A stretch of DNA of 64,000 bases from Selaginella tamariscina (taxonomy: Eukaryota > Streptophyta > Lycopodiopsida > Selaginellales > Selaginellaceae): positions 219,291-283,290 of the forward strand of contig PUQB01000054.1 in NCBI GenBank assembly GCA_003024785.1, given 5' to 3'. Of this stretch, positions 24,248 through 50,762 are shown piece after piece. Positions within the stretch are counted from its first letter, which is position 1. Every line of letters starts with the position of its first letter. The notes under the pieces were generated by a model. It was not told where the DNA came from. It searched no databases and saw nothing but the letters and a program-made list of their open reading frames with translations. The translations under genes and the position numbers were made by a program.

Positions 24248-25968
24248 TGTCAGAGTTTTAACCCAAAAGGCCAACACGTGGCAACACGTGGCTGCCAGGT
24301 GGCCATTCGGCGTCATCACCCTGTGTGAGCAACGCTAAGTTTCCTAGAACAACCCCAATGACCCCTAGGTTAGACTCTAATGCCCAAGTGGACAGGAGAC
24401 TTAGGGTTTAGCCTAAGTCTCCCTAGAATGTCTCCCCCAGAACCCTTGAGGGATAACCTCAGTTGACTTAGGGTTTAGCCTAAGTCTCCCTAGAGTGTCT
24501 AACCCCAAAACCCTTGAGGGATAACCCTAGTTGACTTAGGGTCTTGCCCTAGAAGACCTAGACAGGCTCATGTCCTAACCCCCATCAAGGAGACGTGTGT
24601 CCACACATACCCCCATGACAGAGCTAAGGCATCGTCACTTACCCTTGAGGAATCACCCTCATCGGGAGTACAACCCTTTAGGGCGACAAGGGGTATCCTG
24701 AACCACGACTAACCCCTAAGGGTTTGAGTGGCCAAGTTATACCCTAGACCTAGGCTAGTACTTAGTGAGGCCACGAGTGTGTGCCGTAGGCGGACACGAG
24801 TTTTGCTAAGCAAACTCCCTAAGACTAGGTTTGGGATAACCCTAAGCACATGACCTTGCGAGTGCCTCACGAAAGGGCTCATGCTAACACGCTTAGGTTG
24901 TTCAACCTTGAATTCCAAGGAGAACACTCCCCTAGCCAAGTGTGCAAAGCACACCTAGTTATGAGACCTAACCTCCCTTGAGCAAATGCCCAAGGCTTAG
25001 CACCCTAGCGCAAGCACAAGCATGTCTATTTGTCAGAGTATCCAACCCCTTAACAAGCCCATGACATACCCCAAAGGGGGCTCAGGCGTTGTACCATGTG
25101 ACACTGCCTTCCCCGATGTGGCTATCATGCCATAGCCCTTAGATTCAAGAGTTGCACCAAGTGCCACAAACGTGGCTCCTAAATGCCAACTCTAGAACCC
25201 CTGTGAACCCTAGGAACTAGCAACGTGAACCTGTCAAACAAGATCCCACGCCCACAGTTGGACAAGGACAGGATGTGCCTTGCTTGGCCATGAGGCTACA
25301 CCTAGCTTGACGTGGGGAGGAGGCTGGAGACAAGCCTCAACCTCTGCCTCTTGGAACGTGCATTCCGACAAGACCTCCCAGGCATGGATTCGCCAACGTT
25401 AAGGGTAAGCTACCCCGAAGGTGGGACGTACCCCTGGCATCTGGAAGTTAGGGCGGCACAACAGAGGGTTGTACCTTGACGACACAAGCTAAGCTTGCAC
25501 CGGCAGAAGAGCAACGAGCTCTTCATGAACCCAGGACTCCTACTATATACTACCTTATTTATGTGACAGAGGCCCCCCCCCCTGTTTTCCTGTTTACATA
25601 AGTGGGCTAGCACTGAAATCTCATTCCCAGAGGGAACATACTTGGTGAGTTATCCATCGACCCCTAAACCCTAACCTGTCAAACCTGGGGGTATTTCTAA
25701 GCATATCCGACATGCCGAACTCACCGGAACTAGCCATTAATCCAACCGGGACACGGAAAACGAGGGTAAGAGTTTTTCTAGAAGGTAAGTGCTACCTTCG
25801 CTTAGAGTTTCTCGAGATATCTAAGGACAGCCGGCCGGACTACCCCTAAACACCTAAGTGCACTAAGCGGGGCTGTTTCTCACTACATCTAGGGCTTGTC
25901 AACATAGTACAGTAGGTAACAACAGTCAACGTCCAAAGTAAAGAGGAGTCATAGTAAAAACTATGACA
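24248..25968 (-). repeat. Family-A 3' LTR
   Basis: 1721 bp, nearly the same as 44734-46504. Most differences are one-base changes in homopolymer length (for example ACCCTT against ACCCCTT, CATCGGG against CATCCGGG). Confidence 0.85.
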
Positions 25969-25970
25969 CA

Positions 25971-28915: not shown

Positions 28916-28919
28916 ACTT

Positions 28920-28946
28920 ATGCACGTTGTAACTAAAGTGGGCATG
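28920..28946 (+). repeat. Left terminal inverted repeat
   Basis: 27 bp; 25 of 27 positions match the reverse complement of 43888-43914. Preceded by ACTT. The true end could be one base further out (TATGCA), but then no target duplication is seen. Confidence 0.75.
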
Positions 28947-29207
28947 ATACGTGAAAATGGGAATATAAAATAAATTACTAATTAATACTTAAGTTTTAAT
29001 TATTAATTAATCATTTAATTAATATGTAATTAAGCCTTAAATATTAATTAATTAATTAATTAATCCTTCAATAACCTTACTTAGTAAGGAATATTCCTAA
29101 AATATCTTAGAATATTCATATTATTCTAAAAATAGTTTACAATAATGAAGAAATACTATCAAACATAATTACAAATGAAATCATTTTCTTATCAACATGT
29201 TAATTTT

Positions 29208-30383
29208 TTATAAATACTTTCTTTCTATCATACAAAGAAATCTTTTCATTTTGTCTAAATCATCACTCTCCGGATTAATCAAATCATTTTGGTCAATATC
29301 TTGATGTTGTTGCCACCACTTAACACTCTCACGAATGCAATTGGGAGTTGCCATCCTTGTTAATACATAAGATGTGATAAGAGAAGGTCTGCATAAAGGC
29401 TCATCTAAAAACTGACGTTCCTTAAGAATAATATTATAAAGCGCCCGGTTGCTATCCTTCATTTTATAAAATTCAATATCACGAGAAAGAAAAGCTTCAG
29501 GAAATGTATGATACGGTGGATACTGCTCACAAAAATTTTCGAGATTCTTCTTTCTGAGGCACGTATCCAAGTAGTTCACTAGCTCATCCATGATATCGGT
29601 ATCAGAATATGGATCGAAAGTGATTGGATGAATACAAGCAATGTTTTGGTTGAGCATAGCCTTCTGAGGAGAGTCGTCTACTACTAAGATATGTGCATTC
29701 TTCATTATCCTTAAGCGACTGATCTCCCCATGAGTCCCAATTATTCTTTCATTCTTGAAGAAGTATGGCTTGCTTTCCTTTCTTATATTGTGAAATTCGA
29801 GAGGTTTATAACACATTCGCTGGTCAAAAATCCAATCTTTACGAATCACCTCTTCTGCAACACTACAATGTTTCTTAAGTAAACTCAACAGCGGTGTTAA
29901 GTTATGAATCTGCATGCATGACCAAATCCCCACAAGCGCACCCATCTCCTTAAGCTTTTGAAAGAGACGATCCAACCCTGGACGAAAAATAATATCATAT
30001 CGAAATTTACCATGACAAGGAATGAAATCTCCTTGTTTGATTTCTGTTTTTCTATCCTCGGGCCTTTGTCGATGAAGCAGAACACCATTGACATCCAACA
30101 ACACAATATGGCCATGAGTAACATGAGATAGCGTTGCCTCTTGAATACTTTGCAAATCACTTGTTTGCTCCCTTTCACATTTATCCGTTGCCACTATTTC
30201 GTTGCCTATCCCTTCATCATTTAATTGTACATCATCCTTACAAGATTCAGATATTGCATGCGCTGAAGAAATTGATTTCGGAACTGAAGCCAATAAAAAT
30301 GATGATGCAAAAACTGAAGTGGCCCCCATGGTAACGATGTTTTGAGCTGCATTATTATCCATTTCCTGCATGAACTCTGTCAT
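29208..30383 (-). CDS. FCP1/SCP-like HAD-family protein with DxNG motif
   Basis: An open frame of about 390 codons inside the left arm of the DNA transposon. After a variable N-terminus (~95 residues) comes an FCP1-homology (NLI-interacting-factor) domain. Motif I is HIVLLDVNGVLLHRQ, motif II is GIWSCM, a basic segment is CYKPLEFHNIRKESK, and motif IV is ILVVDDSPQKAML. FCP1/SCP phosphatases use DxDx(T/V), where the first Asp is the nucleophile and the second the acid/base; here the second Asp is Asn (DVNG), so normal phosphatase activity may be lost or weak. The frame extends upstream to 30398 without another ATG, so I take the ATG at 30383; a second ATG follows at 30371. The gene stops 290 bp from the left TIR. 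Whether it is a captured host gene or an element component is unknown. Confidence 0.75.
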   Translation of the reverse strand: MTEFMQEMDNNAAQNIVTMGATSVFASSFLLASVPKSISSAHAISESCKDDVQLNDEGIGNEIVATDKCEREQTSDLQSIQEATLSHVTHGHIVLLDVNGVLLHRQRPEDRKTEIKQGDFIPCHGKFRYDIIFRPGLDRLFQKLKEMGALVGIWSCMQIHNLTPLLSLLKKHCSVAEEVIRKDWIFDQRMCYKPLEFHNIRKESKPYFFKNERIIGTHGEISRLRIMKNAHILVVDDSPQKAMLNQNIACIHPITFDPYSDTDIMDELVNYLDTCLRKKNLENFCEQYPPYHTFPEAFLSRDIEFYKMKDSNRALYNIILKERQFLDEPLCRPSLITSYVLTRMATPNCIRESVKWWQQHQDIDQNDLINPESDDLDKMKRFLCMIERKYL

Positions 30384-30666
30384 TCTGACATGTGGCACAA
30401 GAAATTGTCGCCAAACCCCTCTCTTACCTCATGGCAATGCTGAAAATCCATGTTCTCAATTATTTCATTACATCTGCAAAATGATAATTAGCTGACCTTA
30501 AAATTATCAAGGTATATTATTTACCTTGTTAATGTGTGACCCATGTTTGAACTAAAAGCTTCATTAATCCTTGAGAATTTATTTTCTGTACAAATATAAA
30601 AGAAATATACAAAAATGCCTTATGTTACACTCATTTACAACTATTCATCACTCTATCAATTCATTA

Positions 30667-33600
30667 TCAATTCTTCTTCGCTATTACCTTCTGATGAGGC
30701 GAAGAAGGTCTAAGCCGCTTGTGAGATGGTTCAAGATCTTCTGCATCTTCTATTGATGTTTCCATGGGTCCTGGAGTGTGCGAATGTTCTGTACTCCTCG
30801 AGATAACTTCCGGTCTAATATCTGATTGAAGTTCGTTCTCAGACTCCGAGATTGAACCAGATTCACCTTCAGAGCTATCGCACTTATCTGGAGGGAACTT
30901 TCTCAAATACGCCTTTATGGAATCGTTGGGGTACTCAGTTGAGACCCAATCTATCCACTTGTTCAGGTCCTCAACCATGGTCTTATCCTTTCAACGGCAA
31001 ACACACATGTATGCCGAAGGTAACACTCCTTCAAGACGGACCCCCTAGTGCAGTAGTCAAAAACCCACGCATCACTGTGAGGACCCCTGATCAAGTTGAC
31101 GATGCTCCGTGCCGCTTGACTTGTAATGTTTGGATAACGTACATTGCCGAATACGTCACTCATACCTATCGGTGTATCGGATGGAGGTTCAGGGCCGTTG
31201 GAGTGCAAACAGATGCCTGGCCAGTCATTTGGAAGCTTGAAATTGTTTGGCGCATTCCTAACAACCAAGTGAACAAGTATCAATGCACTTGGGATTAGCA
31301 TCGTTCATATAAAATCCTGTCCAACGATGTCTATTCTTCTTGGCGAAGGCGAAGGCAAAAGTATCGGTGACATGAGCAAGAATCAAGAAATAAATACCTG
31401 AAAAAGTAGGTATCAGTGAAGAGCGCAAGCATGAATTCAATAATAAATACCTTCTATGTATATGCTTGCACGGCTAAGTTTCTCCACCAGATCCTCTAGT
31501 GCCCTATCTGTCGAAAGATTTTTTGACACCCGCCGATCCATCACGAACAATTGAAACGGTTTCCTACAAGCAGTGATGTTACCCATAAATCTCCGAATCT
31601 AACAACAAACATCTGTAGGGCTTGTCGTGATTCGTAGCATCCTCCTTTATAAGGTTCAATTCGGTTCTCCGCTGCTGAAGGACTGCCATAAGAGAAGGCG
31701 TCATCCCAATGTTCTCCTTTTTGGCGTTGGCGTGCAATAGATTCTTGCCTAGATCTTCCGATTGGTTCACCCATTCGACAAGCATATCATCGTTCGTCAC
31801 ATGCAAATATTTGCTAACCTCTTCATATGTTGAAGTCGAGGTCCAACCCAGTTTGTGGCAGTGTATTCCCAACCACTCCTTGAAATGCCTGACCGTCTTC
31901 AACTCCATTGCCTTGAGATGAAAAGGAGAGGTTGGGCTGCTGTTATTGATTTGTAGTTTGCCATCGATCACCAAATCAGCCAAGACTTCCATCTCCTCCA
32001 TCGTTGTTCCATTTAAAGGCTTCAACCATGTGAGCTTGAAATCGTTGTCTACATCCTTTGTAGATTGAACAGACTTAGCCTTCGGCGTCTTACTGGGTTT
32101 CTTTGCAGACTTTTCTGAGGGCTCCCCTTCACTTGTCTGCTTCTTCTTCAGTGTTCCTTTTGAAAAGGATTCCATAATCCCCAACCATTTGGCAAAGATC
32201 CTATCTTCGGGGCAAGAAATCAACATCATCAGAAATGATGTTTCCTTCCCGCCCACCTGGGCAAAATCAACTGCTGCAATTTCTTCAACTCTCTGAGGAA
32301 AAAGACAGATTAATATACCGGCGAGATAAATCCCGCCCAAACAATTTGCTTACCCGGTATTCCGCAGATTGTGTATTCCCTGCGGTAGCTCTTTGTGGTC
32401 GCTGAAGAGATTCCCACACGGCTCGCGTGTGTTTAAACTTCTCCCATATTTTGCTGTTGTAGTGGTTGGTGTCGGCAGCGTCCCATTCCGCCGATAACTT
32501 ATGGTACTGCTCGATTGTGAGATTCGGCTTAGCTAAAAACGCCGATCTTTTTGTCAGCTTCTCACGGGTATGCTCGGAAAGTTTTGTTGCCATCGTTCCT
32601 TTGTTGTGTTCTTCGAGAAGTCGTTGGGCTGCCGTTATTGTGTGCTGGCCACTAATGATGTAGTACTTGATAGATCTTTTATTCTCCGTCTGAATCTTCA
32701 TGAGTTGTTCTGGTGTTGTGATCCAGACTTTGTCAGCACCCTTCCTTCTTTCATAGTATGGACACAAAACAGCATTATGTGGAACGGTATAAGAATTGTC
32801 GTCCTTCATCTTCTCCATGAGCTCAGCTACACGTTCCTGGTTGAGTGGCCTGTAATTGAAGTTTGGGTTGACGCTGCAATATTTAACCCTACAAGGATAA
32901 ATCTTATCATCCAACATCATTTCCTTGTGACTTATTGCAGCATGAGATGCCACAGGTGCAGCTGACAAAACGATTGATGATTTTCTTTTGCGATCCGAAT
33001 CAACATGTGTGATCCCCGACTGCAGCTGTTCTAGTGTTCTCGGCACACTGCTCCAGCTCCCGAAGCTTCCTAAGCAAATTGAACGTGATCTGTAGAGAAC
33101 CTGAGACCGAGCCACCTTCTCAATCTCCCTTATGATGTCGCTGTGTTCTTCTTCAATGTCAAGAGGGAAGATTGCTCCACTTGCTGATTTTCTGTATTGT
33201 GAAACAATATCTCCTGACAATACACCTACTCGATGAGTCTGAAGATCTTCGAAGTAGACATCCAGATGGATCCCCTCCATAGATGGGCTTTCGTTGAGTT
33301 GAAGAAGAACTCCAAGGTCAACATCATTAGTGAACACGTGAACGTCATTATCCACAAGTCGACAAAACCACCCGAGATTAATGTTGTAACTGACGACCTC
33401 TGGATCCGAGAACGTGACATTGGATGGAACAAGGCATATCTGTCGAGCATCGTCCAATCTGGGTTCGCAGCCTGCTTTCGGGTGCTTGACTAGCGAATCA
33501 ACTTTCCATTGTTTTGCTTGTCCATGAGATGTGACAGAGGTTAATTTGACAGCAGCCATGGTTGCTCCAATGCGCTTCCCATTTATCTTAAAATATGGCC

Positions 33601-33753
33601 AAGTTGATTCCAGAATCCCCCTGCCCATCTCTTCTCCTGCTCTTGTCTTTAATGTCACCAATTCCACATCTGAATACAAAAATGATTAGTTCAAGTATCC
33701 GAGTATAACAGATTTTATTTTAATTCTTACCCAGAATTTGACGACGACTCCAT
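30667..33753 (-). CDS. ParB-like domain protein with degenerate N4/N6 methyltransferase-like C-terminus
   Basis: Predicted exons: 33792-33731 (ATG 33753), 33669-32354, 32292-31451 and 31397-30667, each bounded by fitting splice sites. N-terminus: a beta-rich module (VELVTLKTRAGEEMGRGI) shared with the gene at 40.3-43.4 kb. Residues ~270-360 of the second exon look like a ParB/sulfiredoxin fold: RPLNQERVAELMEKM, then YYIISGQHTITAAQRLLEEH in place of the bacterial GxRRxxAA helix. Then comes a Lys/Ser-rich linker. The last exon resembles the end of a class-beta N4/N6 methyltransferase: SQAARSIVNLIRGPHSDAWV (HPTQKP-like region), FDYCTRGSVLKECYLRHTCV (motif I position) and FAVE followed in another frame by KDK (motif II). 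No DPPY is visible and motif I lacks FxGSG, so catalysis is unlikely. Single-base shifts occur near 31586, 31300 and 30978. It ends in an acidic tail with a basic KRLRPSSPHQK patch. The ParB call is fair; the methyltransferase call is inference. Confidence 0.6.
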
Positions 33754-33792
33754 ACTAATGACTCGATCTCCTTGTTTGATCAAATCGTCCTT

Positions 33793-34093
33793 CTGCAAAA
33801 TAATACACTATAAATATAAATTATATAAAAACGCACACACACTTGTATAAACCCGAATATACAAAAATAATACACAGAGAGAAGTAGACGTAATTAACTG
33901 TCCGAAGCTCACATTTGTGTTAGTGCAAAAGAAAGATAACATTTCGTTTTAGAACCACCACAAATGTGAGCTCTGGACAGTTTTACATAGATTCCTAGCT
34001 TTTACTCGAAATAATATGAAGATGATAAAAGTAAATAAAATGAGATATGCAACTTATATATACTAATACACATATATATTCACATGGAAGGTG
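33793..34093. other. Intron, 3' part
   Basis: Predicted to lie in the long first intron of the minus-strand ParB-like gene. AT-rich. A short inverted repeat, 'ctgtccgaagctcacatttgtg' near 33900 against 'cacaaatgtgagctctggacag' near 33960, forms a ~20-bp-stem hairpin. Confidence 0.45.
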
Positions 34094-35600
34094 CGGCGGG
34101 ATTAATCTCGCCACCCCTTCAATGCCTCCTGAAAGAGTGGGCGGGATTAATCTCGCCACCTTTCTGGAGGCCTTGAACGGGAGTGCGGAATTAATCTTGC
34201 CACCCTTCTCGGTCTCAGAGAGAACTGGGCAGGATTTATTTCTCACACCCCTTCAGTGACTCCAGAAAGGAGGCGGGATTAATCTCGCCCACCATGTAAG
34301 GGATGGTTAAATGAATCTCGCCACCCTTCCCAGTCCCCTCCATTGGTATGTTGTAAACCTTCTACGTCTTAGACAGAAACGTTTGGGATTGGTCCAACTC
34401 ACCAATGGAGGAAAAAGGGAAGGGTGGCGAGATTCATTTCTCCAACAGGCATTGAAGACTCGGCGGGATTAATCCCGCCGCCCAGGGCCTTCACTCGGTC
34501 CCTATGCGGCGGGATTAATCCCGCCGGACGCCAATTCCCTGCGCGGAATCGGGCGGGATTAATCCCGCCGCCTAGGCACTTCAGGCAGGCCAATGGCGGC
34601 GGGATAATCCCGCCCGATTCCGCGCAGGGATTGGCGTCCGGCGGATTAATCCCGCCTCCCAGGCCCTTCACTCGGGCCTTAGTCGGCGGGATTAATCCCG
34701 CCGAACGCCAATGCCCTGTGCGAAATCTTGCGGGATTAATCCCGCCGCCTAGGCCCTTCAGGCAGGCCAATGGCGGCGGGATAAATCCCGCCCGATTCCG
34801 CGCAGGGCATGCGTACGCGGCGGGATTAATCCCGCCCACCATGTAAGGGATGGTGAAATTAATCCCACCACCCTTCTCGGTTCCCTCCATTGGTATTTTG
34901 TAAACCTTCTCCGTCTCAGACAGAGTTAGTCGGGATTGATTCAACATACCAATGGGGTAATGAAGGTTCGGAGATTAATCTCGCCACCGGGTAATGAAGG
35001 TTCGGAGGCTAATCCCGCCGCCCTCTCGTAAATCATGCGCTCACACATATATATTGGCTGCGGCATTTTTGAACAGGGATGGGTGGGGGCGGGATTAATC
35101 CCGCCGCCCAGGGAATTCACGCAGGACATGAACGGCGGGATTAATCCCGCCGCCCTCCGCGAAGGGCATGAGCGTGGGGCCGGATTAATCCCGCCGTTCA
35201 TGTCCTGCGTGAATTCCCTGGGCGGCGGGATTAATCCCGCCGCTCTACGACAAACCGAAGAGCGGCGGGATTAATCCTGCCGCCCATTCCCTGTAAATGC
35301 CCTGCGCGGAATCCGGCGGGATTAATCCCGCCCATTAGAACCTTCACACAGGCCATTGCCGGCGAGATAAATCCCGCCGCATTCCGCGCAGGGCATGGAT
35401 GAGCGGCGGGATTAATCCCGCCGCCGAGGCCCCTCACGCAGGCTATGGGCGGCGGGATTAATCCCGCCGCTCTTCGGTTTGTCGTAGAGCGGCGGGATTA
35501 ATCCCGCCGCCCATAGCCTGCGTGAAGGGCCTCGGCGGCGGGATTAATCCCGCCGCCATGGCCCCAACTATATAGCGGCGGGATTAATCCCGCCGCTCGA
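34094..35600. repeat. Palindrome array A (~30 copies of GGCGGGATTAATCCCGCC and variants)
   Basis: Perfect or near-perfect copies of the 18-bp self-complementary sequence recur with centres about 40-51 bp apart, mostly alternating 44 and 46 bp (for example 34470, 34516, 34560, 34606, 34647, 34693, 34737, 34783, 34827; and 35096 to 35585). Outer bases often extend the palindrome to 20-22 bp. The first part (34094-34320) has weaker copies with GATTAATCTCGCC. Spacers of ~24 bp are of a few kinds that recur in both orientations. The palindromes are GC- and CpG-rich in AT-rich surroundings. The array lies upstream of the second exon of the ParB-like gene. Confidence 0.95.
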
Positions 35601-35603
35601 GGG

Positions 35604-36292
35604 GCTTAGCGAGATAAAAACACACACATATATATGTGTGTGTGTATATATATATATATTATGTATGTATGTATGTATGTATAGGAGTGTACGTGTGTGT
35701 GCAAGAGATAGATAAATAAATAAACTTATACAGTACTGGTACACCTAATATATGTGTGTACATAGGTATATATATGTGTGTATATGTATATCGTGTGTAT
35801 GCGTGTGAGCGAAACAAATAAAATCATACAGATAAACAAACACACACACACACATATATATATACACAGGAGTGTGCGTGTGTGTGCAAAGATAAAACTA
35901 ATAAATAAATAAAATTATACAGATAAAACACACATATATATGTGTGTATATAGATATATAATCTATAGAGAAAGAGAGAGAGTCTGTGAATATATAAGCA
36001 TATATATAAACTAGTGTTGTATGTATGTATATATGTATATAGGTATATATATATGTGTATATGTATATTGTGTGTATGCGTGTGTGAGCGAAACAAATAA
36101 AATCATACAGATAAACAAACACACACACACACACATATACATACACAGGAGTGTGCGTGTGTGTGCGAGAGATAAAACTAATAAATAAATAAAATTATAC
36201 AGATAAACACACACATATATATATGTGTGTATATATGAATATATAAGCATATATATAAACTAGTGTTGTATACTATTTGTTAATATGCATTG

Positions 36293-36335
<43 letters not shown>

Positions 36336-36422
36336 GTGTGTGTGTGTGTGTGTGTGTAAAGCAGTGCGCGTGTGTGTGGGAGAGATAGATCAATAAAAAA
36401 AAATTTACAGATACTGGTACAC

Positions 36423-36486
<64 letters not shown>

Positions 36487-36703
36487 GCAAGATCAATAAA
36501 AAAAATTTACAGATACTGGTACACATAATATATGTATGTATATATATAGGTATATATATATATATGTGTATATGTATATCGTGTGTATGCGTGTGTGAGC
36601 GAAACAAATAAATCATACAGACACATATACATACACAGGAGTGTGCGTGTGTGTGCGAGAGATAAAACTAAGAAAAAAATTATACGCACACTCCTATACA
36701 TAT

Positions 36704-36734
<31 letters not shown>

Positions 36735-36735
36735 G
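35604..36735. repeat. Microsatellite block, TA/TG/CA-rich
   Basis: Long runs of TA and TG/CA, including (TA)n near 36296-36332 and (TG)n near 36335-36357 and 36454-36482. A larger unit containing 'gcgtgtgtgagcgaaacaaataaaatcatacag' recurs near 35800, 36075 and 36585. ORFs here are low-complexity artefacts. Confidence 0.85.
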
Positions 36736-36742
36736 ATCTCAC

Positions 36743-36800
36743 CTGTGTGCACAGCCGCCGCCGCCGATTTCACAGCCGCCGCCTCTTGAAACCCTAAGAA
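36743..36800 (-). other. Candidate 5' exon of the ParB-like gene
   Basis: On the minus strand a GC-rich stretch (GGCGGCGGCTGTG...) ends CACACAG followed by GTGAGATC, a strong splice donor. If used it would be a non-coding first exon and would place array A in a ~2.9-kb first intron (36742-33793). No in-frame ATG is present. Confidence 0.35.
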
Positions 36801-36910
36801 TATACCTAAACCCTAAAGGAATTAAATATATATATCAACCCTAATAGAATATTCCTTCTGAGAATATACTTAAACCCTAAAAAGAATAAAATATAGATTC
36901 GCCCTAAACG
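36784..36910. promoter_or_regulatory. Cluster of telo-box-like AAACCCTA motifs
   Basis: AAACCCTA or close forms occur near 36787, 36808, 36836 (AACCCTA), 36872 and 36901 (GCCCTAAA). In plant promoters such boxes bind telomere-repeat-binding factors. They lie next to the candidate 5' exon of the minus-strand gene. Confidence 0.4.
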
Positions 36911-37105
36911 AATATTCTTTCATTATATTATTAGCGCGTGCGTGTGTGTGGGTATCACATACACCTCAAAAATATAAATCATGCAGGGATTTAACATGTG
37001 TGTGTCCATGAGAGTGTTAAAGTTTCATGTGTACACATTGCATATATTAATACACATAATATATACATACACACGTGTATACACACAGACATACACACAT
37101 ATTAC

Positions 37106-37136
37106 ATGGGTTTAGGGTTTAGGGTTTAGGGTTTTG
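37106..37136 (+). repeat. Interstitial telomere-type repeats (TTTAGGG)n
   Basis: About four consecutive TTTAGGG units (plant telomere repeat), with variants at the end. Confidence 0.9.
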
Positions 37137-37142
37137 GATTTA

Positions 37143-37470
37143 GGATGGATCATGCATGGTGTGTATGTATGAGAGAAGAGAGAGTGTTGAAAAATTATTT
37201 TTGTACACATTGCATATATTAGTACACATATATACTTACACATATTATACACAGATATACATACATAGTATATGAGAGAAGAGAGACAGTACATATTAAT
37301 ATGGATCATGCATGGTGTGTATTATACACACAGACATACATACATATTAGTACATAATATTAGAGAGACCGAGTACATATTATAGATCATGCATGGTGTG
37401 TATGTTTGAGAGAAGAGAGACAGTACATATTAACATGGATCATGCATGGTGTGTATGTATGAGAGAAGAC
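37143..37470. repeat. Short dispersed repeat with GATCATGCATGGTGTGTATG
   Basis: Four copies (near 37147, 37302, 37386 and 37439), most followed by 'agagaagagaga'. They lie between the two telomere-type tracts. Confidence 0.75.
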
Positions 37471-37587
37471 AGAAAGTACACATATATACATACATATATA
37501 CATACAGAGTACACATATATACATGCACACGTGTATACACACAGACATACATACATATTACATGAGTAAATTCATTGTGTTACATAT

Positions 37588-37618
37588 TAGGGTTTAGGGT
37601 TTAGGGTTTAGGGTTTGC
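37588..37618 (+). repeat. Second interstitial telomere-type tract
   Basis: About four consecutive TTTAGGG units starting ATTAGGG, 480 bp from the first tract and in the same direction. Confidence 0.9.
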
Positions 37619-37870
37619 TCCCAACAAGCTTAATATAAATATTACACATGTAAATTCAATGTGTTACATATACACAGATTGAGTACATATATCATACATG
37701 CGTTGAACATGATGTTTTCAATAAAGAAGCAACATATTTCTTCAGTTTGGTTTAGGGTTGTGCATGTGTGTGCATATGTGTTTTTGTAAGTTCTTGTAAT
37801 GCGTGTGTAAATTTATGATTGTGTTTATATATGTGTGCAAAACAAACATCGAATAATTAAGAAAATAAAA

Positions 37871-38292
37871 TTAATAAACACACTAGGAACATATTTTAAA
37901 TTATACATAATAATATATGATTTTATCTAATATATAGCCATATATAGTTTTAATAATATATATTAATTTAATATTGATAAAAAGGTTTAACATTGAAATA
38001 TTCTTGAAATAATAAGAAATTAATTGAGAAAATCCCATTAATATATACAAATGTAAATTAAGTACTCAAATAATTAACTAAATTAATTATCATAATCATG
38101 TTTAATATTGGAATATTCTTGGAATAATAAGAAAATAATAAAGAATATCCCATTAATATAAAGAAGATTAATTACTCAAGTAATTAAGGAAATGATATTA
38201 ATATATATATTATTAAAACTATATATGACTATATATTAGATAAAATGATGTATTATTATGTATAATTTAAAATATGTTCATAGTGTGTATTA
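37871..38292. repeat. Large inverted repeat, ~100-bp arms
   Basis: The arms at about 37871-37972 and 38194-38292 are reverse complements with few mismatches (AACATATTTTAAATTATACA against TGTATAATTTAAAATATGTT). The loop of ~220 bp itself holds two copies of a ~115-bp AT-rich unit (GGAATATTCTTGGAATAATA type), which recurs near 38310 and 38435. Confidence 0.8.
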
Positions 38293-38879
38293 ATTTAATA
38301 TTGATAATAAGGTTTAACACATGAATATTCTTGAAATAATAACAAATTAATTGAGAAAATCCCATTAATATATACAAATGTAGAATAATTACTGCAATAA
38401 TTAAGAACAAGACTAATTTAATTATGATAATCAGGTTTAATATTAGAATATTCTTCAAATATTAATAAAATATTAAAGAATATCCCATTGATACTAGGAA
38501 ATGAAAACTAAATACTCGAGTAATTAAGAAAATAATAATAATAAACAGACTATGAATATATTTTAAATGATACATAATAATATATCAATTTATTTATTGT
38601 ATAAGTATATATTATATATAATATATAATATAAAATACTTGAATACTAAGAATGTAGAATATAGTCTAAAATTTCGTAATATTAAACAGCTTGAATCACT
38701 TGAATAACATTAAATGCAATTTTAAAATACTCATTGGAACTGGAGAGTATATATGTCAGAGTGTCGGATATTTGTGTCAACTCATCTTAAATTTTATTTT
38801 CTGTTCTTTTTAAAAAATTTGAATTTCTGACATATGTATTGTCGGTCTGACATATAAATTTGAAAATGCATTTAATTTC

Positions 38880-39044
38880 CCACTCAAATTCAGATCTGGT
38901 TCTTTCTCCGGCAAGGGTTTCTTCATTTCTGTATTTTTCACTCTTTAGATCTTCTTTTTTCTTCATAGTGATCATCTCAGGAGCGAGATTAAATTGGGTG
39001 CTATTCTTTATAGGAAAGCACGGCGCCTTCAGTGCTGTTTACAA
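38880..39044 (+). other. Candidate 5' exon of the DUF7869-type gene
   Basis: Less AT-rich than its surroundings and ends TTTACAA followed by GTAAGT, a consensus donor. If joined to the acceptor before 40299, array B lies inside the first intron (39045-40298). Its start is not determined. Confidence 0.35.
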
Positions 39045-39211
39045 GTAAGTATTATAAACAAATTTAAAAATACTTATTAAGATTCACTCTCTTACATTCT
39101 CTCTTAAAATTACAATTTAGGGGTTTAGAAATGCATTAGGATTATAATATATTCCGTTAGGGATTTATCACGTTTAAATATCCTTTTAACTTAATATTCT
39201 AGGTTAACCGG

Positions 39212-40160
39212 GGCGGCGGGATTAATCCGGCCATTTCTTTTTCGCCTCTTTGAAGAAGTGGCGGGATTAATCCCGCCACCATCTCCCGGGCAATGCTTCT
39301 CCGCCACTGAAAAAGAGTGGCGGGATTAATCCCGTCGATAACCTTCTCAACTGATGAAGAGTTACCAGAATTTATTAGAAAGAGTTGTCGGCGGGATTAA
39401 TCCCGCCAACCATTTTAGGAGGCAGGGAAGGGGTGGCGGGATTAATCTCGCCACCACTTCACTGTTTTAAAGATTTGGGGACAGGATTTATCCCGAGATC
39501 TCTTTGAAATCATAGTTTTGGAGAGAGTTATGTGCGGATTTAATCCCGCCACCCATTCCCCGTCGTAAGAATTGTGGCGGGATTAATCCCGCCTTGGACT
39601 CCCTCCGACAAGGAAGAGCCGGCGGGATTAATCCCGCCGCCTCTTCCTCCGACGAGGAAGGGAGTCCGGCGGGATTAATCCCGCCGACTCTCTCCGGCGA
39701 GGATGAGTCGGCGGGATTAATCCCGCCGGACTCCCTTCCTCGTCGGAGAGAGTCGGCGGGATTAATCCCGCCGGACTCCCCCCGAGGAGGAAGAGGCGGC
39801 GGGATTAATCCCGCCGCTCCCGGAGGAAGAGGCGGGATTAATCCCGCCGACTCTCCTTGTCGGAGGGAGTCCAAGGCGGGATTAATCCCGCCGACTCTCT
39901 CCGAAGGGGTTGAGTCGGCGGGGATTAATCCCGCCGGACTCCCTCTCGTCGGAGAGAGTCGGCGGGATTAATCCCGCCGGACTCCCCCCGAGGAGGAAGA
40001 GGCGGCGGGATTAATCCCGCCGCTCTTCCTTGTCGGAGGGAGTCCAAGGCGGGATTAATCCCGCCGACTCTCTCCGAAGGGGTTGAGTCGGCGGCGGGAT
40101 TAATCCCGCCGACCGTTCCTCGTCGGAGGGATTCGTTGGCGGGATTAATCCCGCCCATCA
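39212..40160. repeat. Palindrome array B (~21 copies)
   Basis: The same palindrome as array A, with centres mostly 42-47 bp apart from 39584 to 40147 (39584, 39629, 39676, 39718, 39763, 39806, 39839, 39883, 39926, 39969, 40012, 40056, 40101, 40146). Copies from 39223 to 39541 are looser. Spacers differ from those of array A (for example CCTCGTCGGAGAGAGTC and its complement) but also recur in both orientations. It lies just upstream of the first recognisable coding exon of the DUF7869-type gene. Confidence 0.95.
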
Positions 40161-40298
40161 GTTGTATTAATCAAACATGAGATACTCTAAACATAATTAT
40201 GTATTATTGCATATGCAATTATTAAGTAACCGTAATTCAGATTTCTTAAAAATATTGCATAAACAGATATCATAAATAATACAATTATTTATGTGCAG

Positions 40299-43200
40299 AC
40301 AATATGTTTAATACTGGAGATAAAGTATGTCTTCTTCGGAACAACGAGATTAGTTGGCACTGGAACTGTGGAAGTTCGAGATAATAATGCTCATGTCACA
40401 ATATTTCCCAAGGATCTTGTGTGTACGTATGGGTGAACACCATTTTCAAGCATGTTGAGGTTCTGGGAATGGAATTGAGGAGGTTCTCCTGTATTGTGGA
40501 ATTTGGATGAATCAAGGCTGACACAAAATATTGCAGAGTCACAAACAAATAGTAGCACGATGATGGCTTGCCTGCTGTGATGGATGAGGTGATTCTCTTT
40601 CTTCGTGAGATTGAAGTCGGAAGAGGCATCATCACAGCTATAAATCCAATGGAAGCAGTGTCAGAAGAGAAACTAGGGTCCGACTTCGTGGGTGTAGTTG
40701 TGACAGAGGTTTCACCTAATGGCACATTGTATCCTGGATCCCTCGTGAGGTGGCGAACATCTGAATTAAGACGGCAAGATGGTTCAACATATTCTGGGTT
40801 GGATTTCAATAATAACAACCCGGAAGAACAACTCATATTTGAAGAGGTTCCTTGCATTGGTCCTATTGTAAGAAAAAGGCGATTCATGGGTTGTAGATCT
40901 TCCCCTGCAAGTTTCAGCAAGAGGGTAAAGATGGATCCTACATCTTCCGAAAGTGTTACGAGCATTTCCACGATTGACTGTTGCAAGAAGAAGTGTTGTC
41001 AGATGGCAGACCGGAATGAAATTACCCAATGTAGACATGTCTTTCGTATGCTCACCCAAAAGCAAAGGCATGAGTTTGTATATGCTGCACTAACTGGGTG
41101 TATTGATGGAATGGCCTCGGACACAGGTTATCAGAGTACATCCATGGTATTTAATAAGGTGGCCATCTGCTTCAAAGCTTGGTACAGTATATACGGGATC
41201 CCAAAGACCACGTTCTACCGTCGGAGGGATGAGTGGCTAGATGGAGCGCGAACCTCAGTTCATGGGAACACTCGCTTGGTCAAAACCCGCTCTCACATCA
41301 TGGCAGCCATAGAGATACTCAAGGCTTTTGTGGAAGCAAATGCAGACAGGATGCCTCACAAATGCCGAACCACAAATGCAGGGGTCAGGGAAAATCTCAA
41401 GGTTTTACCTTCAATCTACACTCAATTGAAACTGTGTGAACATGTGAACAAGTGCCTCAGTTTGATGGGGCTCCAAGCAATCTGCACTGGTACCTTCAAC
41501 AACATATGGAATACTCATTTTAAGGATGTGGAGATTGCAAAACACTCTAGCTTTTCTAAGTGTGACACTTGTACATCATTGAAGGCTGCAGAGGCTTGTG
41601 CAAAAACCTTGGTGGAGATCACTACCATTCAAAGGAAGATGGAGGCCCACATGATTGCACAACAAACTTGTCGGTCTCAGTACTATGCACACCGCATGCT
41701 TTCTGTGTCACGCCCATCAGAGTACTGTGCTTGATCCATGACAAGATGGATCATTCAAAGACCAGCATTCCAAAGCTCTTTGCAACACCAAAGTGCCTTG
41801 GAAATGTCATGAAACTTCCGATTTCTTTAACAGGTGTGCTAACACATGGACACGGTTGTGAGTCATATGGACACTTTTCACTTCCACATTGGTCTAGCGA
41901 CTCCAATTTCACTATTGGGTCGTTAGCCATGTGTTTCAGAAACCTTGAAGCCCACTCACAGACAATCCTATCAGTGATCTCAAAGTGAAGAAACAACACC
42001 TTCAACCTTTACATAATGCTCTCATGAACACGTCTGCACTTGAGGCTACTTGGGAATATGAGAGGCATTGTCAGCAACCTGCACAAAAAACAGATGGCCC
42101 TGTTGAGAGTTCAGGTTCAGTGGAGGGATCTAGCTCAAATAGTGTACATGTGTCCTCAACATCAAATAAGCTTCCTCGTCATTTGCTTTTACAGATGGAT
42201 AATTGTGCAGGCGAGAACAAAAATAGGTAAATCATTTTACTTAAGGGTTTCTCAAGCTCATACTTACTTTTATTTTCTAGATATGTGCTAGCATACTTGT
42301 CAATGCTTGTTGCCAAAGGTGTGTTTGAAACAATCACGCTCAGTTTCCTTATGGTTGGTCACACTCATGAAGATATTGATGCGTTCTTCAGCAAGGTCTC
42401 CAACTCTACAAAAAGGACAAGTGCACTTACCTTACCGCATATGATGAATCTTTTTGAAAATTGCATCTCCAAAAAAAGTTGTGCTTTGCTTGTGACTGAG
42501 GTGCCAGACTTCAAAAAATTTCTCAAGGAGTATATAAAAGAAGGGAGTGATTCTTTAGTTGGTCACCTTGTGCCGCTACAATTCTTTTTCTCCATACGAG
42601 ATGGTATACCTATTATGCAGTACAAGTTACGGCCATCAGAGCAGGAGTGGTTACCGAAAGAGGGCTTAATGCTCTTCAAAAGTGGAGAGGATGGAAAGCC
42701 ACTTCTCCCAGAAGGACAACCAGACCCTATTCCATTGAGTGCCCAGCTCAAGGAACAAGAGGTTATTATTGATGGCATCAAAAAATATGTGGCATGGGTT
42801 CAAAAATCGATGCCAAAGAATTCTGATAAGGCAACTGGTTACTCAGAACTATATAAGCATGTGGTCAACTATTGGGAGACTGTTGTTCGAGAGTTGGAAG
42901 GGCCTACTGTCACAAGTACAGAATTGCAACACCCTTTCTGGCCTAAAACAAGGTGGCGAGAGGAGATTGAAATGACATCACTGAGCACAGACGACATAGA
43001 AGCCAGTAGTGATGTGGAAGTGCAAACCCCACACTTTGTTGGACAAAGGAACCAAAAACCTAAAGCATACTTTGATTGCTGCAAGGATCTTCAAAAACTA
43101 ATGATGGTTCTCATTACTCCAGATGCGTCATATAATCAGCCTATTTGGATGGGTCAAATTATCGACACACCTGAAGTAATCACAAAAAATAGTATTGTTA

Positions 43201-43409
43201 AGGTTGCATGGTTCAAACCACAAAAAAGGCGACACGAGAAGGAGAGCGAAAGATATAATGGATGCCTAGAGAAAACATGGTCTCCCAATCAAAAAGACCC
43301 AGCATGTTTTATAAATGTTAAATCCATTCGATATGGGTGGATGTCAAGAAGCGTTGATAAAGTCACGATTAACAAAACTGCAAGGGAATGTATGTTTTCT
43401 GAAGCTTAA
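40299..43409 (+). CDS. DUF7869-type protein, candidate RNase-H-fold transposase
   Basis: Coding pieces: from 40304 (MFNTGDKVCLLRNNEI, quickly shifted), 40568-41734, 41723-41985, 41985-42226, then after an intron (GTAAAT...TTTCTAG, 42227-42280) exon 42281-43409. N-terminus: the beta-rich module VILFLREIEVGRGIITAIN shared with the ParB-like gene. A middle region with paired Cys (FSKCDTCTSLK) precedes the probable catalytic core: LIHDKMDHSK (~41740), LLQMDNCAGENKNR (~42190) and MVGHTHEDIDAFFS (~42350). The conserved Asp/Asp/(His-Glu-Asp) set suggests an RNase-H-like nuclease, as in DDE transposases; that assignment is inference. The C-terminus (PIWMGQII, VAWFKPQKRR, SIRYGWMS) looks like an SH3/BAH-type barrel. 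One-base breaks near 41730 and 41950, plus stops between 40380 and 40560, leave it uncertain whether this copy is active. It points at the right TIR. Confidence 0.7.
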
Positions 43410-43887
43410 AGCAATTACAAAATTATAAAATATCATATATTTAATATTCATAATTATTATAAACTCTTTAATAATAGTACCAAATTGTATACTTAACTAT
43501 ATAAATTTAAAAAATGATATGGAAGATTGACTATATTATTATAGGATTTATATATATATTATTACTACTACAAATTTTTAATTAATAATGTTATATTTAA
43601 ATATTAATATTTTAATAACAACATCAATATTTATATAATGTACCTCTTATGCTCTTCCTTAATTGTTATATTAGGCAATATATTATATAATTTAATACAT
43701 TCTACTTTTTAATGTTATTAATTTTTGTTCAATGAATGCTATAATTTATTAAAGGGTAGAATACAAAATAGAATATTCTAAAGAATATTCTCTTTTCAAA
43801 CATATATTCTAAAGAATATTCCTTTAATATTAGAAAATGCTAATTAAATAGCTAAAATTGCTAATTATTAGGAAATGGGACTATAGC
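43410..43887. other. AT-rich right arm of the DNA transposon
   Basis: 3' flank of the DUF7869-type gene up to the right TIR. It contains two AAAGAATATTC-type repeats (43780-43825). No gene. Confidence 0.6.
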
Positions 43888-43914
43888 CATGCCCATTTTA
43901 GTTACAACTTGCAT
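43888..43914 (-). repeat. Right terminal inverted repeat
   Basis: CATGCCCATTTTAGTTACAA then CTTGCAT, complementary to the left TIR with two mismatches, followed by ACTT. Confidence 0.75.
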
Positions 43915-43918
43915 ACTT

Positions 43919-44733: not shown

Positions 44734-46504
44734 TGTCAGAGTTTTAATCCAAAGGGCCAACACGTGGCAACACGTGGCTGCCAGGTGGCCATTCGGCATC
44801 ATCACCCTGTGTGAGCAACGCTAAGTTTCCTAGAACAACCTCAATGACCCATGTTAGACTCTAATGCCCAAGTGGACAGGAGACTTAGGGTTTAGCCTAA
44901 GTCTCCCTAGATGTCTCCCCAGAACCCTTGAGGGATAACCTCAGTTGACTTAGGGTTTAGCCTAAGTCTCCCTAGAGTGTCTAACCCCAAAACCCTTGAG
45001 GGATAACCCTAGTTGACTTAGGTCTTGCCCTAGAAGACCTAGACAGGCTCATGTCCTAACCCCCATCAAGGAGACGTGTGTTCCACACATACCCCCATGA
45101 CAGAGCTAAGGCATCGTCACTTACCCCTTGAGGAATCACCCTCATCCGGGAGTACAACCCCTTTAAGGTGACAAGGGGTATCCTGAACCACGACTAACCC
45201 CTAAGGGTTTGAGTGGCCAAGTTATACCCTAGACCTAGGGCTAGTACTTAGTGAGGCCACGAGTGTGTGCCGTAGGCGGACACGAGTGTTTTGCTAAGCA
45301 AACTCCCTAAGGCTAGGTTGGGATAACCCTAAGCACATGACTTTGCGAGTGCCTCACGAAAGGGCTCATGCTAACACGCTAGGTTGTTTCAACCCTTGAA
45401 TTCCAAGGAGAACACTCCCCTAGCCAAGTGTGCAAAAGCACACCTAGTTATGAGACCTAACCTCCCTTGAGCAAATGCCCAAGGCTTAACACCCTAGCAC
45501 AAGCACAAGCATGTCTATTTGTCAGAGTATCCAACCCCTTAGCAACAAGCCCATGACATAACCCCAAAGGGCGTGCCTCAGGCGTTGTACCATGTGACGT
45601 TTAGCCCAGTGTCACATCTCCATGTGACACTGCCTTCCCCGATGTGGGCTATCATGCCATAGCCCTTAGATTTAAGAGTTGCACCAAGTGCCACAAACGT
45701 AGCTCCTAAATGCCAACTCTAGAACCCCTTTAGTGAACTAGGAACTAGGCAACGTGAACCTGTCAAACAAGATCCCACGCCCACAGTTGGACAAGGACAC
45801 GGATGTGCCTTGCTTGGCCATGAGTGCTACACCTAGCTTGACGTGGAGGAGGAGGCTGGAGACAAGCCTCAACCTCTGCCTTTTGGAACGTGCATTCCGA
45901 CAAGACCTCCCAGGCATGGATTCGCCAACGTTAGGGGTAAGCTACCCCAAAGGTGGGACGTACCCCTGACATCTGGAAGTTAGGGCGGCACAACAGAGGG
46001 TTTGTACCTTAACGACACAAGCTAAAGCTTGCACCGGCAGAAGAGCAACGAACTCATTCATGAACCCAGGAGCTCTCCTACGTATACTCTACCTTATTTA
46101 TGTGACAGAGGCCCCCCCCCTTTTTCCTGTTTACATAAGTGGGCTAGCACTGAAATCTCATTCCCAGAGGGAACATACTTGGTGAGTTATCCATCAACCC
46201 CTAAACCCTAACCTGTCAAACCTGGGGGTATTTCTAAGCATATCCGACATGCCGGACTCACCGGAACTAGCCATTAATCCAACCGGGACACGAAAAACGA
46301 GGGTAAGAGTTTTCTAGAAGGTAAGTGCTACCTTCGCTTAGAGTTTCTCGAGATATCTAAGGACAGCCGGCCGGACTACCCCTAAACACCTAAGTGCACT
46401 AAGCGGGGTTGTTTCTCACTACATCTAGGCCTTGTCAACATAGTACAGTAGGTAACAACAGTCAACGTCCAAAGTAAAGAGGAGTCATAGTAAAAACTAT
46501 GACA
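44734..46504 (-). repeat. Family-A 5' LTR
   Basis: 1771 bp. On the minus strand it begins TGTCATAGTTTTTACTATGA and ends GTTAAAACTCTGACA. The primer-binding site follows two bases after its end. Confidence 0.85.
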
Positions 46505-46509
46505 CAACA

Positions 46510-47903
46510 TTGGCTGCCAGGTGGCTATTCGGCGTTATCACCCTGTGTGAGCAACGCTAAGTTTCTCAAAACAACCCCAACGACCCCTAGGGTTAGACTC
46601 TAATGCCCAAGTGGACAGGAGACTTAGGGTTTAGCCTAATCTCCCTAGAATGTCTGCCCCCAGAACCCTTGAGGGATAACACTAGTTGACTTAGGGTTTA
46701 GCCTAAGTCTCCCTAGAGTGTCTGCCCCAAAACCCATGAGGGATAACCCTAGTTGACTTAGGGTCTTGCCCTAGAAGACCTAGACATGCTCATGCCCTAA
46801 CCCCCATCAAGGAGACGTGTGTTCCACACATATCCCTGGACAGAGCTAAGGCATCGTCACTTACCCCTTGAGGAATCACCTTCATCCGGGAGTACAACCC
46901 CTTTATGGCGATAAGGGGTACTCTGAACCACGACTAACCCCTAAGGGTTGAGTGGCCAAGTTATACCCTAGACCTAGGGCTAATACTTAGTGAGGACATG
47001 AGTGTGCACTGTAGGTGGACACGAGTGTTCACTAAGCAAACTCCCTAAGGCTAGGTTTGGGATAACTCTAAGCACATGACCTTGCGAGTGCCTCACGAAA
47101 GGGCTCCTACTAACATGTTTAGGTTGTTCAACCCTTGATTTCCAAGGTAAACACTCCCCTAGCCAAGTGTGCTAAAGCACACCTAGTTATGACACCTAAC
47201 CTCCCTTGAGCGGATGTCCAAGGCTTAACACCCTAGTGCAAGCACAAGCATGTTTGTTTACTAAAGTATCCAATCCCTTGGCGACAAGCCCATGACATAA
47301 CCCCAAAGGGCGTGCCTTAGGCATTGTACCATGTGACGTTTAGCATAGTGTCACATCTCCATGTGACACTGCCTTCCCCGATGTGGGCTATCATGCCATA
47401 GCCCTTAGATTTAAGAGTTGCACTAAGTGGTGCTTATTTATGTGACGGAGCCCCCCCCTCGCTTTTCCTGTATGTGTTAGTGGGCTTGCACTGAAGTTTA
47501 GCCCCTTAGATAAATTAACAATATGAGCCTATAACTCACCCTTACTCCTACCCCTAAACCCTACCCAAGGGGGTGGGGGTTTTAGGGCGTGGGTTAGGGC
47601 AACCCTAGGGTTAGGTCAACCTTAGGAGTGTTCCTAACTATACTTAACACGCCAAACTCATTTACAAAGACCAATCAGCCTATTCAGGATGTCAAAATTG
47701 GGGTGGGTTTTTAGAAGGTAAGTTCTAGCTTCGTTTAGAGTTTCCTGCAAATACCTAATGACACCCACCGGACCATCACCAGATACCCAAATGCACTAAG
47801 CAGGCCTGTTTCCTACTACATTTAGGGTCCATCAACATAGTACATTAAGTAACAACAGTCAACGTCCAAAGTAAAGGGTCGAGTCATAGTAAAAACTATG
47901 ACA
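46510..47903 (-). repeat. Level-2 solo LTR, main part
   Basis: It is a family-A LTR resuming at TTGGCTGCCAGGTGG, with an internal deletion near 47430, ending in ACTATGACA and followed by TGAGG. With 24209-24247 it makes one LTR of about 1.43 kb with a 5-bp target duplication, inserted in the gypsy linker. No internal region of its own remains, hence a solo LTR. Confidence 0.8.
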
Positions 47904-47908
47904 TGAGG

Positions 47909-48420
47909 AGAGCCTGAGAATGTGCTGACGAACTGACAAGAGGTGGAATCCTGTTGAGGAGGAACCTTCGACACTGATATAGGATTGGAAGAACCCTGTA
48001 TAGGAAACCGCGAATTGAGGAGAACCTGAGAATGTGTTGACGAACTGACAGGAAGTGGATCATGTTGAGGAGGAACCTTTGGAAACCGCGAACTGAGGAG
48101 AGCTTGAGAATGTGTTGACAAACTGACAAGAGGTGGATCCTGTCGAAAAGGAGTCTTCAACACTGATACATAATTGGAAGAACCATGTATAGGAAACCGC
48201 GAACTGAGGAGAGCCTGAGAATGTGTTGACAAACTGACAAGAGGTGGATCCTGTCGAGGAGGAGTCTTCAACACTGATATAGGATTGAAAGAACCTTATA
48301 CAGGAATCTGCGAACTTACAGGAGTGGAAAGAGCCTGTGGATATGCTGAGGAACTGACATGAGGTGTTTCCTATCAAGAAGGAATCTTCAACTCTGATAC
48401 AGAACATGCATGGTCAATCC
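47909..48420 (-). repeat. Gypsy linker repeats, right part
   Basis: Four to five copies of the ~110-bp unit seen at 23823-24208. On the minus strand they encode repeated Ser/Gln-rich peptide (for example GSTSCQFVNTFSGSPQFAVS). They follow the protease region and look like a low-complexity spacer. Confidence 0.8.
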
Positions 48421-48436
48421 TGAAGCTTGTACTGCC

Positions 48437-49860: not shown

Positions 49861-49969
49861 TCAAACTCAGTTATGATCTATGAAAGAAAAGGAGGAAAAC
49901 GAAGGAAAAGAATCAAGGAAAAAAAAGTAGCTGGAAAACGGAGAGTTATGAAGGAAGTTATTATCAAAT

Positions 49970-50757: not shown

Positions 50758-50762
50758 AAAGG

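Follow-up and report, generated by a model that had tools for sequence, protein, structure and literature searches.

En/Spm (CACTA) transposons encode TNPA, a protein that binds many copies of a short subterminal motif and has been reported to relieve methylation. Elements of the Sola superfamily have 4-bp target duplications. Sola1 is listed for Physcomitrella (PMC9033089). In the MULE-type VANDAL elements of Arabidopsis (VANDAL/VANC), an accessory gene lies beside the transposase gene and a short motif is described in tandem repeats, within introns and upstream of the element genes, with fast repeat turnover (PMC5735166, PMC10398659). In VANDAL21 genes, the motifs that VANC21 binds are described as forming tandem repeats, both within introns and upstream (PMC5735166). 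Anti-silencing by a sequence-specific protein that the element itself encodes has been described for VANDALs, and its authors suggest that the strategy may be more widespread than has been assumed (PMC10398659).

We analyzed a 64-kb stretch of Selaginella tamariscina DNA (hereafter the window) in which two arrays of an 18-bp palindrome are part of one abundant, ~15-kb DNA transposon with terminal inverted repeats. Comparison of the ends identified a left 27-bp repeat starting with ATGCA (28920..28946, + strand) and a right repeat (43888..43914, - strand); the first-pass annotation had placed terminal inverted repeats at 28920 and 43888, and these are real, with 26 of 28 bases identical. The flanks, read by eye, carry the target-site duplication ACTT on the left (28916..28919) and right (43915..43918), neither with an assigned strand. 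Among five copies showing both ends, four had 4-bp target duplications by eye (ACTT in the window, ATGT in R4, TTAT in R7 and ATAA in R8); the element, with its terminal inverted repeats, resembles Sola in the length of this duplication. The order within the element is a phosphatase-like open reading frame (ORF), gene 1, array A, ~3.6 kb of intervening DNA, array B and gene 2. Genes 1 and 2 are divergent, and each of these main genes has an array near its start. Like VANC/VANDAL-type systems, the element has a short motif in dense tandem copies in non-coding DNA near its genes. However, the VANC21 motif is described as 9 bp long and in one orientation, whereas here it is an 18-bp palindrome at a ~45-bp pitch, and gene 2 is of the DUF7869 type rather than a MULE-type transposase. 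The many copies of a short motif also recall En/Spm, in which the TNPA-bound sites are subterminal, whereas here the sites are internal, near gene starts, in an element with 4-bp target duplications.

The phosphatase-like ORF (29208..30398, - strand) encodes a NIF/FCP1-type HAD phosphatase domain (Pfam PF03031, E 3.5e-12), and a PF03031-type ORF also lies within element copies R2, R4-R8, R9c and L082. Gene 2 (40304..43409, + strand) encodes a DUF7869 transposase-like protein (Pfam PF25273, E 3e-25) whose frame is broken in the window copy; 11 relatives carry PF25273, several of them also PF26133, and the Pfam search that gave the DUF7869 match gave no match to a MULE model. In comparison with two close copies, gene 2 showed 12-13 mismatches but 30-41 gap openings over ~4.1 kb, and as gap openings far outnumber mismatches, we suspect indel errors in the assembly. 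For this reason we reject, in part, the frame breaks as proof that the element is dead.

The coding exons predicted for gene 1 (30670..33753, - strand), also frame-broken in the window copy, encode an orphan protein: homology searches found no homologues, and searches against Pfam, NCBIfam, PHROGs and PDB sequences gave no domain above threshold, only sub-threshold matches to assorted families. An unaided AlphaFold2 model of its longest exon had a mean pLDDT of 32.9 and was uninformative. The coding sequences of gene 1 and gene 2 look constrained; dN/dS of gene 1 against family copies with dS of at least 0.04 was 0.06-0.11 in exon 3 and 0.28-0.41 in exon 2. A suspected resemblance of gene 1 to a ParB-like protein joined to a degenerate DNA-methyltransferase found no support in Pfam, NCBIfam, PHROGs or PDB sequences. 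Alignment by hhalign to eight phage ParB-methyltransferases gave probabilities of 0.2-0.4% (reversed control, 0.6%), block profiles did no better than shuffles, and tblastn against phages returned nothing in one search and, in another, three weak hits (E 2-3), all of them unrelated proteins. The weak best profile match of gene 1 fell at a methyltransferase motif, and the reversed control scored above it. A viral origin or spread of the element was likewise rejected, as gene 1 exon 2 has no relatives in viral contigs and the C-terminal piece of gene 2 has none in viral contigs or phages. Elsewhere, the exact 18-mer was seen in one viral contig and in 49 stretches of prokaryote DNA; 48 of these have just one site, and nine come from one Prevotellaceae assembly.

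A site scan of the window found 44 sites within 3 mismatches of GGCGGGATTAATCCCGCC, where none is expected by chance (100 shuffles; largest count, 0). Perfect copies number 29, with 14 in array A (34095..35594) and 15 in array B (39215..40155; no strand is assigned to either array). Within the element we counted 50 sites at up to 5 mismatches with a median pitch of 45 bp, and 36 of the 42 pitches no longer than 60 bp measured 40-47 bp. These counts bear out the first-pass annotation, which had described two arrays of about 50 copies at a ~45-bp pitch, 3.6 kb apart, and had noted one core shared by blocks with differing spacers: the spacers of arrays A and B are unlike and occur in both orientations. 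It had also called the sites CpG-rich relative to their surroundings, and CpG observed/expected is indeed 1.05 and 1.14 in the arrays, compared with 0.60 and 0.69 in their spacers alone and 0.56 in the window. The palindrome is an 18-bp symmetric unit centred on ATTAAT, and it resembles host factor sites. The literature searched yielded no mention of the 18-mer or of three shorter forms. Beyond the range 34094-40160 covered by the first-pass annotation, the scan found a solitary variant (32320..32337, + strand), the one palindrome inside predicted intron 2 of gene 1 (32293..32353, - strand; GTAAG...CAG).

From splice signals, we infer that each of the divergent genes has an array in its predicted first intron, a short way upstream of the main coding exons. 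The predicted first intron of gene 1 (33793..36742, - strand) would hold array A; its donor, GTGAGATC, was present in 8 of 11 copies searched, and its acceptor, TTTTGCAG, was found with at most 1 mismatch in 7 of 11. Array B would lie in a predicted 5' intron of gene 2 (39045..40298, + strand), with the donor CAA|GTAAGT in 10 of 11 copies searched (R2 is without that side of the element) and an acceptor matched in 5 of 11.

The host assembly contains 27,128 exact copies of the 18-mer (reversed control, 0). We sampled 24 host stretches of 10 kb (240 kb), 17 of them picked for sites and on one contig. With up to 3 mismatches allowed, these stretches hold 309 sites, and 283 of them have sequence of gene 1 or gene 2 no more than 2 kb away. 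Two copies account for the remaining 26: one begins at the end of a contig, and the other is old and seems to have been split by an insertion. Among the seven stretches picked without regard to sites, two have sites together with element genes and five have neither. Both arrays are visible in eight element copies, the window's included, and sit near gene starts in all eight; R2 and R3 are truncated elements in which the missing part includes one array, in R4 the expected place of array A is masked, and the L082 stretch ends before array B. Array copy number varies among elements, and an older, rearranged copy (R9a) has kept the palindrome, with symmetric variants, at other spacings. In the 24 stretches we saw no arrays apart from element copies; this rules out ordinary satellite DNA within a sample of which 17 stretches were chosen for sites. 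The first-pass annotation had named a genome-wide satellite unlinked to the element, or the absence of arrays from other element copies, as findings against its view, and we observed neither.

When the window was aligned with 11 host stretches, in partly core-anchored alignments of copies that share history, cores differed at 157 of 5494 positions (2.9%) and spacers at 860 of 8091 (10.6%). Cores changed less than spacers in all 11 stretches, with a near tie in R2; the difference was small in R2 (12/288 vs 18/427) and L082 (15/247 vs 32/386). Information content falls from 1.2-1.9 bits within the 18-mer to 0.1-0.34 bits immediately outside. The centre of the palindrome is most constrained (A7 98.9%, T8 99.3%), CpG positions rank among the less conserved, and the commonest change, at position 5 (89 of 740 half-sites), is also carried by the usual intron-2 site. 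That site is identical in eight of nine copies examined, within an intron that is nearly invariant throughout in these eight, so the site shows no special constraint; in the ninth, L082, three of the few intron changes fall in the palindrome, all G-to-A. The earlier proposal of selection to bind a dimeric protein thus gains support, short of proof, from slower core change and sharp information edges, with its "dimeric" part reflecting the symmetry of the site. Gene conversion could also keep cores alike.

As the cores change more slowly than the DNA between copies, we read the palindromes as docking sites. We put it at just short of an even chance that the arrays serve as platforms to which a regulator, in all likelihood the element-encoded gene 1 product, binds and so maintains expression of both genes. 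The protein, sequence-specific and probably a dimer, would bind many closely spaced palindromes, a multivalent docking platform, and once bound might keep both gene starts expressed through activation or through exclusion of host silencing (DNA methylation). The gene 1 product, as the element's non-transposase protein, is the likeliest binder and would serve every copy in the genome, in the way that VANC acts on VANDAL elements; we infer both this binding and its effect on expression.

The main rival, which we judge unlikely, is that the element exploits host transcription factor sites (E2F-DP via GGCGGGA/TCCCGCC; GARP-type or homeodomain factors via GGATTAATCC), so that both genes would be expressed in suitable cells. 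GGCGGGA resembles the E2F core, and the centre of the palindrome is its most constrained part; however, the commonest change, at position 5, falls inside the E2F-like core, the T-tract of the E2F consensus is absent beside CCCGCC, and a symmetric unit of 18 bp whose edges are sharp goes beyond a simple E2F site. In Brassicaceae, amplification of E2F sites by transposons has been reported, with CCCGCC-type half-sites in very many transposon-spread copies (PMC12595863), whereas here the sites form ordered arrays of a palindrome centred on ATTAAT near the element's own gene starts.

It is improbable, in our judgment, that the arrays are tandem repeats of a passive or selfish kind, in which palindromes promote inversion, slippage and conversion and the core spreads and is homogenized without a binding function. 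One core common to two arrays with unrelated spacers, the placement of both arrays near gene starts, their occurrence only with element copies in our sample and the slower change of cores all argue against such a history, although the two spacer orientations, the variable array copy number and the three changes taken by the solitary L082 site outside the arrays are in keeping with it. We find it very doubtful that the transposase (gene 2) binds the sites either as enhancers inside the element or to assemble a transposition complex: En/Spm TNPA offers a precedent for an element protein binding repeated short motifs, but the arrays lie ~5.2 and 3.8 kb from the ends of the window element, and no site occurs in the terminal regions.

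Returning to binding by the gene 1 product, we put forward tentatively, as a possibility, that this DUF7869 transposon carries a second, independently evolved anti-silencing or self-regulation system, in which an orphan gene 1 protein would recognize a palindrome in both first introns; it would have tens of thousands of docking sites throughout the host genome, and the system would enable the element to attain a very high copy number. Any protein that binds the palindrome, whether from the element or the host, faces a very large pool of sites. With one 18-bp site, one candidate protein and about 27,000 exact genomic sites, the element would offer a simple test system. If the proposal is true, the same layout, an accessory gene with tandem site arrays near gene starts, would recur in an element whose transposase is of a different type and whose site is a palindrome bearing CpG, and the strategy would have arisen more than once.

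The arrays of an 18-bp palindrome, GGCGGGATTAATCCCGCC, described in the first-pass annotation are present in the window, where we found 44 sites at ≤3 mismatches (29 of them perfect) compared to none in 100 shuffled versions of the same sequence. At ≤5 mismatches the carrier element contains 50 sites, in agreement with the earlier estimate of about 50 copies, and the reported ~45-bp pitch was also recovered (median 45 bp; 40-47 bp in 36 of 42 short pitches). Array A (34095-35594) lies by gene 1, an orphan non-transposase gene, and array B (39215-40155) by gene 2, a transposase-like gene running divergently from gene 1. The spacers between palindrome cores are mostly 22-29 bp long (range 15-103), occur in both orientations and, as had been proposed, are unrelated between the arrays. 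A further site, beyond the coordinate range first annotated, is located in predicted intron 2 of gene 1 (32320-32337). Our literature searches, covering few subscription journals, did not find the 18-mer or its shorter forms.

Both arrays lie inside a terminal-inverted-repeat element (28920-43914) whose ends match at 26 of 28 positions, upholding the terminal repeats noted previously, and which is bordered by a 4-bp target duplication, ACTT. Among four other copies showing both ends, three have 4-bp duplications (ATGT, TTAT and ATAA) and the left end of the fourth is altered, as judged by eye. From left to right, the element contains an ORF resembling HAD/NIF phosphatases, then gene 1 and array A and, beyond a middle of ~3.6 kb that is AT-rich and includes microsatellites, array B followed by gene 2. 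Within this middle, the interval 37878-38627 carries long inverted repeats, one of 86 nt at 95% and one of 97 nt at 75%. A separate repeat family, composed of tandem units of about 1.17 kb with inverted and direct relatives, flanks the transposon on both sides (5710-9223, 21967-25970 and 44734-51293), and TTTAGGG-type repeats were noted in the window; together with a liverwort relative of gene 2, these would fit a land-plant host.

In the host assembly (300,702,823 bases, 1391 contigs), we counted 27,128 exact 18-mer sites and none for the reversed control. The 100 positions among the matches listed are all on contig C1, and all fall within 17 chosen stretches of 10 kb; 7 unchosen stretches (3 accompanying the 17, plus 4 later) bring the sample to 240 kb. 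Across this sample, 283 of 309 sites (≤3 mismatches) and 110 of 113 exact sites lie ≤2 kb from gene 1 or gene 2 sequence, supporting the suggested tie to the two divergent genes. The 26 sites outside this limit belong to C300, a copy whose contig starts within array A, and to R9a, which is old and rearranged and seems to have been split by an insertion. The ordinary satellite envisaged as an alternative in the first-pass annotation was not borne out, as the two unchosen stretches with sites (C300 and L082) also have element genes and the other five have neither. Absence of the arrays from other copies, also raised there, was seen only in part: both are in view and present in eight copies (the window, R1, R5, R6, R7, R8, R9c and C300, array A being partial in the last), and R2 and R3 each lack one. 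R2 has array A alone, its likeness to the element ending there, and R3 retains the middle and array B, with array A and gene 1 missing. R4 has 2,500 bases of N at the expected place of array A, and the L082 stretch stops short of array B. R6 and R7 probably derive from a single insertion that was duplicated, as their right flanks are shared; two copies about 18 kb apart with an identical right flank (L068-L071, C1:895001-935000) are probably a segmental duplication. Exact sites number 29 in the window copy, 12 in R1, 25 in R5, 7 each in R6 and R7, 9 in R8 and 17 in R9c, and from their mean of about 15 and the 27,128 exact sites we roughly infer some 1,800 copy-equivalents in the host genome. 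This 18-mer was also seen in a Prevotellaceae metagenome assembly, with a single site in each of nine stretches (L013, L022, L026, L027, L033, L035, L037, L039 and L050), often near a contig end.

The core was claimed to be conserved, and on comparing the window with 11 other stretches (each aligned over ≥1500 columns, with the cores themselves as partial anchors) we observed differences at 157 of 5494 core positions versus 860 of 8091 spacer positions, with 101 gaps in cores and 405 in spacers. Core difference was below spacer difference in all 11 stretches, with practically equal values in R2 (12/288 vs 18/427) and close ones in L082 (15/247 vs 32/386). Spacer difference in R1, R6, R7 and R8 (10.8-14.2%) was similar to the rate at silent sites in gene 1 (dS 0.096-0.155, exons 2 and 3); it was above dS in R5 (6.3%; dS 0.011-0.021) and below it in R2 (4.2%; dS 0.11-0.12). 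Inside the window, 11 overlapping segment pairs differed at 11/604 core versus 140/786 spacer positions. Conversion could add to this core likeness. A profile of 370 sites (≤5 mismatches, 12 copies) carries 1.2-1.9 bits per position within the 18-mer versus 0.1-0.34 in six positions outside, with A7 and T8 almost invariant, CpG positions C3 and G4 at 89.5% and 88.4%, and G5 most often replaced, by A. The intron-2 site provides no evidence of special constraint, because the site, unchanged in the 8 copies first compared, lies there in an intron that is nearly invariant throughout, and because the L082 site (5060-5077) has three G-to-A changes, two at CpGs, with one change in the rest of the intron. 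These changes look like decay of methylated CpG.

Splice signals were found on both sides of each array. Of 11 copies searched, 10 have the gene 2 donor (CAA|GTAAGT at 39045), R2 being without that side, and 5 match the gene 2 acceptor (TTATTTATGTGCAG, ending at 40298); the gene 1 donor (GTGA(G/A)ATC at 36742) and acceptor (TTTTGCAG at 33793, ≤1 mismatch) were found in 8 and 7 of 11. From these signals, both arrays probably lie within introns, and transcription would start in the central region. A 35-nt imperfect inverted repeat (33896-33982; 83%, 17-nt loop), possibly forming a hairpin, lies in the predicted first intron just upstream of the gene 1 coding exons, and several telobox-like AGGGTTT/AAACCCT motifs (36743-37150) occur within the predicted 5' exon of gene 1 and above it.

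In comparisons with family copies at dS ≥0.04, gene 1 dN/dS was 0.06-0.11 in exon 3 and 0.28-0.41 in exon 2. A short third piece gave 0-0.43, resting on 2-9 changes. The values for exons 3 and 2 were 0 and 0.74 in R5, the closest copy, with very few changes, and 0.20 and 0.18 in R9a. Searches for gene 1 homologues (requiring shared 5-residue words) and for domains above threshold gave no match, and profile comparisons failed to support a ParB/methyltransferase protein; in the same literature searches, no paper brought together DNA transposons, ParB-like proteins, plant genomes and palindromes. Gene 2 dN/dS was 0-0.32 in the first part and 0.13-0.26 in the last, apart from 0.54 (R3) and 0.67 (R9a). 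Gene 2 contains a DUF7869 domain, a name absent from the literature so searched, and at least 11 relatives at E up to 0.001, including the liverwort Riccia sorocarpa and the anemone Exaiptasia, were scored among the best 7993 word-sharing candidates. Small indels outnumber substitutions between the window gene 2 and close copies (L066-L067, L076-L077), which points to assembly indel errors. The NIF/FCP1-type HAD phosphatase ORF (29208-30398), also in R2, R4-R8, R9c and L082, has dN/dS of 0.46-0.73 in five comparisons out of seven, the other two being partial and giving 0.17 and 0; constraint on it is only weak, and it may have been captured from the host.

In more distant relatives, R9a, whose gene 1 pieces are 41-69% identical, carries 5 copies of GGCCGGATTAATCCGGCC alongside the same palindrome, with pitches of 44 and 29 bp. 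R8b, a more distant gene 1 relative (32-49% by segment, 63% in one 19-residue piece), shows degenerate versions of the palindrome, centred on ATAAAT, upstream and around the position of the intron-2 site; as two element-free stretches also match at these thresholds (4 and 7 at 7 mismatches, 17 and 20 at 8), a degenerate palindrome kept in R8b is suggestive only.

We favour reading the palindrome arrays as docking arrays for a regulator, because the palindrome is sharply bounded, slow-changing and repeated by both gene starts, and because its carrier is abundant with near-identical copies. A host factor, rather than an element protein, may bind the palindromes. In VANDAL21, the short motif bound by VANC21 forms tandem repeats that lie within introns for two genes and upstream for the third (PMC5735166), and silencing and anti-silencing of VANDAL elements are described as targeting the same non-coding regions (PMC10398659). 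The likeness to VANDAL21, with motif repeats in non-coding DNA near element genes, is one of layout; gene 2 belongs to a different family, which rules out the element as a VANDAL. With a constrained non-transposase gene retained in the element, and with this shared layout, a regulator encoded by the element itself would fit the docking array, and this candidate is predicted to dock on the arrays near both gene starts.
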